Shown here piece after piece: positions 6,479-8,178 of a stretch of DNA of 64,000 bases. This stretch comes from Prochlorococcus sp. AG-402-I23 (GTDB lineage Bacteria > Cyanobacteriota > Cyanobacteriia > PCC-6307 > Cyanobiaceae): positions 1 through 64,000 of the forward strand of contig QCIB01000005.1 in NCBI GenBank assembly GCA_003216915.1. Reading direction: 5' to 3'. The number at the start of each line of letters is the position of its first letter. Position 1 is the first letter of the stretch. The notes below the pieces were generated by a model that was not told where the DNA came from, did no database searches, and saw only the letters and a program-made list of their open reading frames with translations. The translations under genes and the position numbers were made by a program.

Positions 6479-7570
6479 TTATAAGTGAATCATTTGTGAC
6501 GAGCCTAAGAAAGACTGATTAAATTTATCTAAATGTGTCGCACTTATAAAACATTGACTATCTTTACCAACAGAATTTAATAACAAATTTTGCCTGGTTA
6601 AATCTAATTCCGCCAAGACATCATCCAATATAAGTATTGGAGGAACATTTAATGTTTTAGTTAATAAATCGAGTTCAGCCATCTTTAAAGCCAAGATAAA
6701 AGTCCTTTGCTGTCCTGAGGAACCATATTTTCTAACTGAAACATTATTGATTAGAAACTCAACATCATCACGATGAGGTCCAAAATTACATTTACCAGTC
6801 AATGCTTCTATTGAACGCTGATTTAAGAGTTGTTCTACTATTTTTTTACTAATAACTTCTTCTTCTTCTTCTTCTGGACTTATATTTTGTATCCCCGAAA
6901 GATAATTTATGTCTATTTGCTCTTGAGATTTACTTAAATGATTATGCCAATATTCAACATATGGTTTTATTTTTAATAAAGCTCTTCTTCTGCGCCTAAA
7001 AATTCTTGTACTTATTATTGACATTTGAATATCAAAGCTTTCAACAATATCTGTAGATTGGGTTTTTAAGAAACTTTCTGAACGCCAAAAATGACTTCTT
7101 TGTTTTAAAAGCCTATTAAATCTACTTATCAGGTCTAAATATACTGGTTCAAGCTGAGATACGACTTTATCAATCCATGTTCTTCGATAACTGGGTTCAC
7201 TTCTAACGATATCTATATCATTAGAACAGAAACATACACTCCGAATATAATTCTTTATTTCACTTTGTTTTTTCAAGATTGATTCATTGACATAAATTCT
7301 TTTAGGCCCTTTTCGGAATAAATTTAACTTTAAATCGTCTTGAAAATTTATCTGTCCTATAACTACAGCCATATCACTGTCGTTCTCTATTAAATCTTTA
7401 TCGCTTAGTGCTCTATTAGATTTTAATTGACTTAAAAATTCAACCGATTCAAGTAAATTTGACTTGCCAATACCATTGCAGCCAAGAACAATTGCTCTTT
7501 GCTCATTTAGATCAATTTCAAAACTTTTATGGTTCCGAAAATTTTTAATTTTTAATTTATTTAAAAAAAT
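6479..7570 (-). CDS. recF: DNA replication and repair protein RecF (start uncertain; ATT at 7570 proposed)
   Basis: The track ORF (6479..7372) lacks the Walker A region. The same frame continues upstream as FLNKLKIKNFRNHKSFEIDLNEQRAIVLGCNGIGKSNLLESVEFL, the RecF N-terminus. No canonical start exists in that extension. Confidence 0.9.
   Translation of the reverse strand: MFLNKLKIKNFRNHKSFEIDLNEQRAIVLGCNGIGKSNLLESVEFLSQLKSNRALSDKDLIENDSDMAVVIGQINFQDDLKLNLFRKGPKRIYVNESILKKQSEIKNYIRSVCFCSNDIDIVRSEPSYRRTWIDKVVSQLEPVYLDLISRFNRLLKQRSHFWRSESFLKTQSTDIVESFDIQMSIISTRIFRRRRRALLKIKPYVEYWHNHLSKSQEQIDINYLSGIQNISPEEEEEEVISKKIVEQLLNQRSIEALTGKCNFGPHRDDVEFLINNVSVRKYGSSGQQRTFILALKMAELDLLTKTLNVPPILILDDVLAELDLTRQNLLLNSVGKDSQCFISATHLDKFNQSFLGSSQMIHL
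6857..6875. repeat. TTC/GAA trinucleotide microsatellite encoding Glu6 in RecF
   Basis: Run TTCTTCTTCTTCTTCTTCT on the + strand, giving PEEEEEEVI in RecF. Confidence 0.9.
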
Positions 7571-7647
7571 TTTTTTTGTGCATTCATTAATTAAATTAGC
7601 TAAGTTTAAAATGTTTAGATTTTCTTTAAAGAAATTGAAAAATTAAA

Positions 7648-7721
7648 GGGCATGTAGCTCAGTTGGATAGAGCATCAGATTCCGGTTCTGAGAGTCGGGG
7701 GTTCGAATCCCTCCATGCTCG
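7648..7721 (+). tRNA. tRNA-Arg (anticodon CCG)
   Basis: GGGCATG/CATGCTC acceptor stem, anticodon stem-loop TCAGA-TTCCGGT-TCTGA, T-arm GGGGGTTCGAATCCCTC. Confidence 0.96.
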
Positions 7722-7731
7722 TAAAATGATT

Positions 7732-8178
7732 TTAAAGTTTATATCCCATTACTCTTATTCCATTTGGATCTAGTATGAATCCATTTTCCTCTAAACTTAT
7801 AAACGAAGATACTGGAGCTTGTACAGAAATACTACATCCAGGCATTTCTCTATTTATTTTCTCAAGAGTTACTTGAAGTAATATTGAATAATAAAGTTGC
7901 TGATTATTCCCTGGCAATGCACTTAAATTCCACAAGTTGGCATTCAATCCCCTGTCGGATGTAACCCTTACAAAGCCATATAATTTATTTTTTAATTCAC
8001 TCTGTATCGTAAAAAAGAAATTACTTTTCTGAATAGCCTCAGAAAGAGGCTTTATTGGAAATGTCTCACAACCACAATTCGCTAAAAGTTTGTTAACTTC
8101 TTTAGCTAATGGGATTTGAGAAGAGTTAACAAAATAACCTTCTGGAAGAACAAGTTTTTTTTTAGAATAATATTGCAA
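7732..8178 (-). CDS. GNAT-like acetyltransferase domain protein
   Basis: Size and pattern (LYGFVRVTSDRG...PVSSFISLEENGFILDPNGIRVMGYKL) resemble a GNAT fold; family assignment is by eye only. Confidence 0.5.
   Translation of the reverse strand: MQYYSKKKLVLPEGYFVNSSQIPLAKEVNKLLANCGCETFPIKPLSEAIQKSNFFFTIQSELKNKLYGFVRVTSDRGLNANLWNLSALPGNNQQLYYSILLQVTLEKINREMPGCSISVQAPVSSFISLEENGFILDPNGIRVMGYKL

Follow-up and report, generated by a model that had tools for sequence, protein, structure and literature searches.

A family-wide ATT/ATC codon as the probable weak start of recF in Prochlorococcus and its relatives

AUU is a poor start codon in Escherichia coli, where the AUU start of pcnB limits a protein that is harmful in excess. 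Conserved non-canonical starts that are repressed by IF3 and limit the respective protein have been described for infC (AUU in E. coli and AUC in Streptomyces) and for the expression-limiting start of sigR in Streptomyces (GTC in 32 of 34 species and GTT in the other two), and in Streptomyces both starts are often mis-annotated (PMC5472188). RecF is a further protein of which the cell tolerates little: E. coli cells normally contain about 50 molecules, and in this species, over-expression is extremely toxic via destabilisation of replisomes (PMC10287930).

The recF gene of Prochlorococcus sp. AG-402-I23 lies within the 64,000 nucleotides of contig QCIB01000005.1 that we analyzed (hereafter, the window), and its start resembles these systems in part. 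With infC it shares a conserved AUU or AUC start and the dose sensitivity of the gene, but IF3 controls its own gene, whereas recF is a DNA-repair gene. With sigR it shares the conservation of a non-canonical start; however, the sigR start is GTC, is accompanied by a strong Shine-Dalgarno sequence, has been shown to be controlled by IF3, and is conserved across a genus, whereas the recF start would be AUU or AUC, has no clear Shine-Dalgarno sequence, and extends across a whole family. The pcnB case concerns a different gene in a different lineage. The canonical recF of other cyanobacteria encodes a homologous protein with the initiator at the same position, and in the outgroup family f10 it even has the same tRNA-Arg(CCG) neighbor, but all 53 outgroup genomes that we examined, those of f10 included, have ATG, GTG, or TTG as the homologous codon.

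The assembly that contains the window is a draft of 37 contigs with a completeness of ~88%, which made the genomes of relatives essential to the analysis. On the minus strand, the recF frame runs without interruption between a TAA at 7645-7643 and its own stop at 6479 (Table 1). A preliminary description of this DNA had stated that the frame has no canonical start ahead of the conserved N-terminus, that the ORF listed from the ATG at 7372 omits the Walker A motif, and that an ATT is found where RecF proteins normally begin. All of this was borne out, and the positions given there for the ATT (7570-7568), the A8T7 run, and an upstream ATG (7587) proved to be right on re-checking. The 24 codons between the TAA and the ATT are free of in-frame ATG, GTG, TTG, and CTG. 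The Walker A motif GCNGIGKS is encoded between the ATT and the first downstream in-frame ATG (7372), and the RecF product includes this motif only if translation begins at or near the ATT. Downstream starts were rejected, as every one of them lies past Walker A in AG-402-I23. When read from the ATT, the protein matched the NCBIfam RecF model TIGR00611 over profile positions 1-339 of 339 with 277 bits (cut-off 172), and the ATT/ATC codon aligned exactly with Met1 of other cyanobacterial RecFs (MYLKSLHLRHFRNY vs IRLHRLELRQFRNY). The dN/dS of 0.07-0.13 in comparison to relatives reflects purifying selection, and the gene is therefore functional.

Table 1. Features at the recF locus, in coordinates of the window.
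Feature	Position	Strand	Basis or remark
recF CDS from the ATT start, 363 codons + stop	6479..7570	-	Translation; full-length TIGR00611 match; dN/dS 0.07-0.13
ATT, putative initiator codon of recF	7568..7570	-	ATT/ATC conservation in the family; canonical homologous codon in 53/53 outgroup genomes
In-frame stop TAA upstream of recF	7643..7645	-	Read in the sequence
A8T7 tract overlapping the recF start codon, neither conserved nor needed	7563..7577	-	A1-A8 and T1-T7 among 91 distinct start regions
Out-of-frame ATG put forward in the preliminary description, not conserved	7585..7587	-	Lost in MED4-like relatives
Second out-of-frame ATG	7581..7583	-	Deletion of one A puts it in frame in 6 relatives (MHKKIF...)
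Probable -10 region of the recF promoter, around TTAGCTA	7594..7605	-	Counterpart of the family-wide TANNNTA element; putative promoter role
tRNA-Arg(CCG), divergent neighbor of recF	7648..7721	+	ARAGORN; arrangement shared by f10 and almost every family locus checked

Aligning the start codon across Prochlorococcus, a check proposed in the preliminary description, gave a clear answer in the high-light lineage. This set comprised 176 recF loci, with some species entering via two collections, and species counts do not equal independent events. ATT was present in 175 of the loci and ATC in one, and ATG, GTG, TTG, and ATA were never found at this codon among the 176. In 95 distinct full-length sequences, the start column was the only one of the 25 conserved isoleucine codon columns of recF that showed no variation, and the remaining columns mixed ATT, ATC, and ATA to some degree. 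Over the 36 nt preceding the ATT, codon position 2 had a mean entropy of 0.52 bits, as opposed to 0.02 bits over the 30 nt that begin with the ATT, and in relatives, indels shift the reading frame upstream of the ATT. By these measures, the constraint on the RecF protein begins at the ATT codon. In-frame starts further upstream were rejected on account of these frame-changing indels, the absence of protein-like constraint on the upstream residues, and stops that are too close.

For the rest of the Prochlorococcus/Synechococcus/Cyanobium family, we analyzed 86 genomes from 47 genera and 14 additional genomes, mostly from six further genera. The codon was ATT in 61, ATC in 22, and ATG in three of the 86 genomes, and the 14 additional genomes had ATT (five), ATC (five), or another codon (four). 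Outside the high-light set, this amounts to 66 ATT, 27 ATC, three ATG, and four other codons, i.e., ATT/ATC in 93 of 100 genomes, GC-rich genomes included; ATA, GTG, and TTG were never found at the codon in the family genomes examined. The upstream stop is at most 10 codons away in 44 of 86 family loci, and 66 of the 80 loci with the stop in view have no in-frame ATG, GTG, or TTG between that stop and the ATT/ATC. The recF gene thus has the features of a conserved non-canonical start, namely no in-frame canonical start, conservation across species, and a homologous initiator position, and the ATT/ATC start appears to have been kept across about 50 genera.

In a few percent of the family genomes, a canonical start at this codon or a short way upstream has replaced the weak one, which is therefore not indispensable. 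ATG at the codon itself was found in single genomes of the genera g8, g58, and g48, the last of which also includes a genome with ATT. In the nested clade of the genera g9 and g49, the role of start has passed to an ATG that lies one codon upstream in g9 and five codons upstream in g49, with one ambiguous g9 genome; the loci of this clade in which the ATT/ATC has been superseded in this way by an ATG 1-5 codons upstream (L384, L394, and L395) offer a natural comparison for what a strong start costs. RecF trees supported the family with 100% and resolved the branching within it only in part, and long branches limit the detail. They are consistent with a single gain of ATT/ATC on the family stem, followed by a few reversions. 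From shared gene order, we infer that f10 is the sister family, a placement that the RecF trees do not resolve.

Upstream of recF, a TANNNTA sequence that mostly reads TACCTTA or TAGCTTA is located at -28/-29 relative to the start codon in 75 of 86 family loci; its relative in the high-light genomes, TTAGCTA, is found at -32 to -34. In these 75 loci, the strongly conserved TACCTTA/TAGCTTA at about -29 to -22 is followed by a semi-conserved leader, gCcaca.g.tgC, and the distance to the start codon is nearly fixed. Judged by its conservation, TANNNTA would be the -10 element of recF; a sigma-70 consensus scan of the recF intergenic region gave no match. With a -10 element about 28 nt upstream, the predicted recF leader is short (~15-17 nt), and it contains no clear Shine-Dalgarno sequence. 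RNA folding around the start was not unusual in three representatives (z 0.3 to 1.35). The divergent tRNA-Arg(CCG)/recF pair is common to nearly all family loci checked and to f10 (loci considered: the window, L220-L229, L253, and L381-L399). As f10 has the same arrangement together with an ATG start, the arrangement seems to be older than the change of the start codon. Another minus-strand frame of the window, a 148-aa ORF at 7732-8178 that immediately follows phosphoenolpyruvate carboxylase, seems to depend on TTG as its start codon; its first ATG comes only deep within the frame, and no NCBIfam model matched.

How exceptional recF is within the genus became apparent from homologous stop-to-stop ORFs in 400 kb of two other, finished genomes (385 pairs). 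In this comparison, recF was the extreme outlier: it alone has, in both genomes, a conserved stretch of ~90 codons that precedes the first ATG, GTG, or TTG, which exceeds what chance would give. The next long ORFs had at most 24 conserved pre-start codons, and a tRNA gene adjoins the beginning of the longest of these. None of the other candidates, which comprised these longer ORFs and two ORFs of 60-80 aa, resembles recF.

Two readings of the locus had been offered in the preliminary description, a rare ATT start on the one hand, and transcriptional slippage, a recent frameshift, or a sequencing error in the homopolymer on the other. The ATT start is strongly supported, with ATT/ATC being family-wide and ancient, and the second reading did not withstand comparison with the relatives. 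It would place the true start at an upstream out-of-frame ATG (7587 or 7583) that is joined to recF by slippage on the A8T7 tract (A8 at 7577-7570 and T7 at 7569-7563), or it would require that the tract was mis-sequenced. The tract is indeed long, and a change by one nucleotide in either direction yields an in-frame ATG: the ATG at 7587-7585, which reads MNAQKKFF-stop, would be joined to recF by one additional nucleotide (MNAQKKIF...), and the ATG at 7583 by the loss of one A (MHKKIFLNKL...). Six high-light genomes of differing divergence (L112, L113, L114, L116, L121, and L124) have in fact lost one A, so that A7 brings the ATG at 7583 into frame, and as judged from these start regions, they are a natural near-reversion to an ATG start. 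However, A8T7 is intact in only 41 of the 91 distinct high-light start regions and altered elsewhere (A1 to A8, T1 to T7), while the ATT is kept, and GC-rich Synechococcus relatives that have no homopolymer still have ATT or ATC at the codon. The upstream frame of MED4-like genomes is ATG CAT TAA and thus stops ahead of the tract, and 13 of the 91 regions have no open ATG, GTG, or TTG in any frame within 40 nt upstream that reaches the ATT and could be used by slippage. With such a variable tract and without a usable start in these cases, slippage cannot be the general mechanism; in a slippage-dependent gene, one would expect conservation of the homopolymer via which the out-of-frame start is joined to the coding frame, and at recF, neither the tract nor the upstream ATG is conserved. 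The ATT was also found in independent single-cell, isolate, and finished genomes. As the finished high-light genomes, two in number and presumably those of MED4 and MIT9301, have the same ATT, it is not an error of draft assembly. An origin of RecF at one of the out-of-frame ATGs is thus extremely improbable. It is also very unlikely that the conserved isoleucine is an ordinary internal residue, at position 2 or later, of a protein that starts further upstream at a non-standard codon (AAG, ACG, CTG, or an upstream AUU). Such an internal position would agree with a codon that is always of the isoleucine type (ATT or ATC) and with the few loci that have ATG, CTG, or GTG within a few codons upstream, but in several loci, stops occur two to four codons ahead of the ATT/ATC (TGA ACG ATT in L201 and TGA GCC ATC in L215, as well as L294, L297, and L299), the preceding codon varies, and the residue aligns with Met1 of the outgroup RecFs. 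Moreover, ATA, which is a common isoleucine codon in high-light recF, never occurs at this position.

The best explanation, which we consider quite probable from the comparative sequence evidence, is that RecF is throttled by its near-cognate start codon, AUU or AUC, which is conserved and lies on an mRNA with a short leader. The recF mRNA would begin at the promoter with the -10 element ~28 nt upstream and would have a leader of ~15-17 nt without a clear Shine-Dalgarno sequence. Its translation would begin at AUU 7570-7568, where the usual fMet initiator tRNA would decode a near-cognate codon. A single replacement of ATG (or GTG) by this codon would date to the stem of the picocyanobacterial family, with selection maintaining AUU or AUC ever since. 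The weak start would hold RecF at a few molecules per cell, and such low amounts would matter in view of the destabilisation of replisomes by excess RecF. Throughout the family, ATG is hardly ever found at the codon and GTG, TTG, and ATA never, which points to selection for a start that is weak but functional, and the AUU/AUC start has probably been kept to hold the potentially harmful RecF scarce.

The AUU start could also be real but passive, in the sense that it drifted in on the family stem and has persisted since a low demand for RecF makes the strength of its start nearly irrelevant. The rarity of RecF in E. coli cells (PMC10287930) and the few lineages that went back to ATG without evident gene loss would fit with this. 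Without selection, however, a spread over ATG, GTG, TTG, and ATA would be expected, and yet ATG, although only one substitution away, occurs at the codon in none of the 176 high-light loci and in only three of the 100 others; we therefore regard mere drift as unlikely. A stronger form of the throttling explanation goes in the opposite direction and would make RecF subject to control by IF3, with gap repair going up when IF3 is low relative to ribosomes. AUU, AUC, and GTC starts are repressed by IF3 (PMC5472188), and the infC gene of the family itself gives no sign of an AUU start in the members where it was readable (ATG in five of six genomes, whereas one may use TTG), so that classical infC feedback is not the reason for the use of AUU at recF. 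As simple throttling accounts for the pattern without any regulation, this control by IF3 can be entertained only tentatively. The same caution applies to a related idea about this family, which comprises the most abundant phototrophs of the ocean: RecF would have been under start-codon discrimination since the origin of the family, with AUU/AUC being required and not merely tolerated and with gap repair after replication tied to IF3 and the status of the ribosomes. We regard this as possible but doubtful.

In practical terms, gene callers that demand ATG, GTG, or TTG would truncate RecF before the ATP-binding motif or drop recF altogether, and in many genomes of Prochlorococcus and Synechococcus, the gene may therefore appear to be defective or absent. 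As translation table 11 permits an ATT start, an earlier annotator may have used the recF ATT silently; a partial literature search found no paper that connects recF to an ATT/AUU start. Documented bacterial genes whose conserved start codon is AUU or AUC are very few, infC being the classical case. With a start that was adopted once and kept across about 50 genera, recF would rank among the broadest evolutionary examples, and it offers natural revertants for comparison. If the dose of RecF is the reason for the weak start, the picocyanobacterial family would provide evolutionary support for the view that excess RecF is harmful to the replisome.
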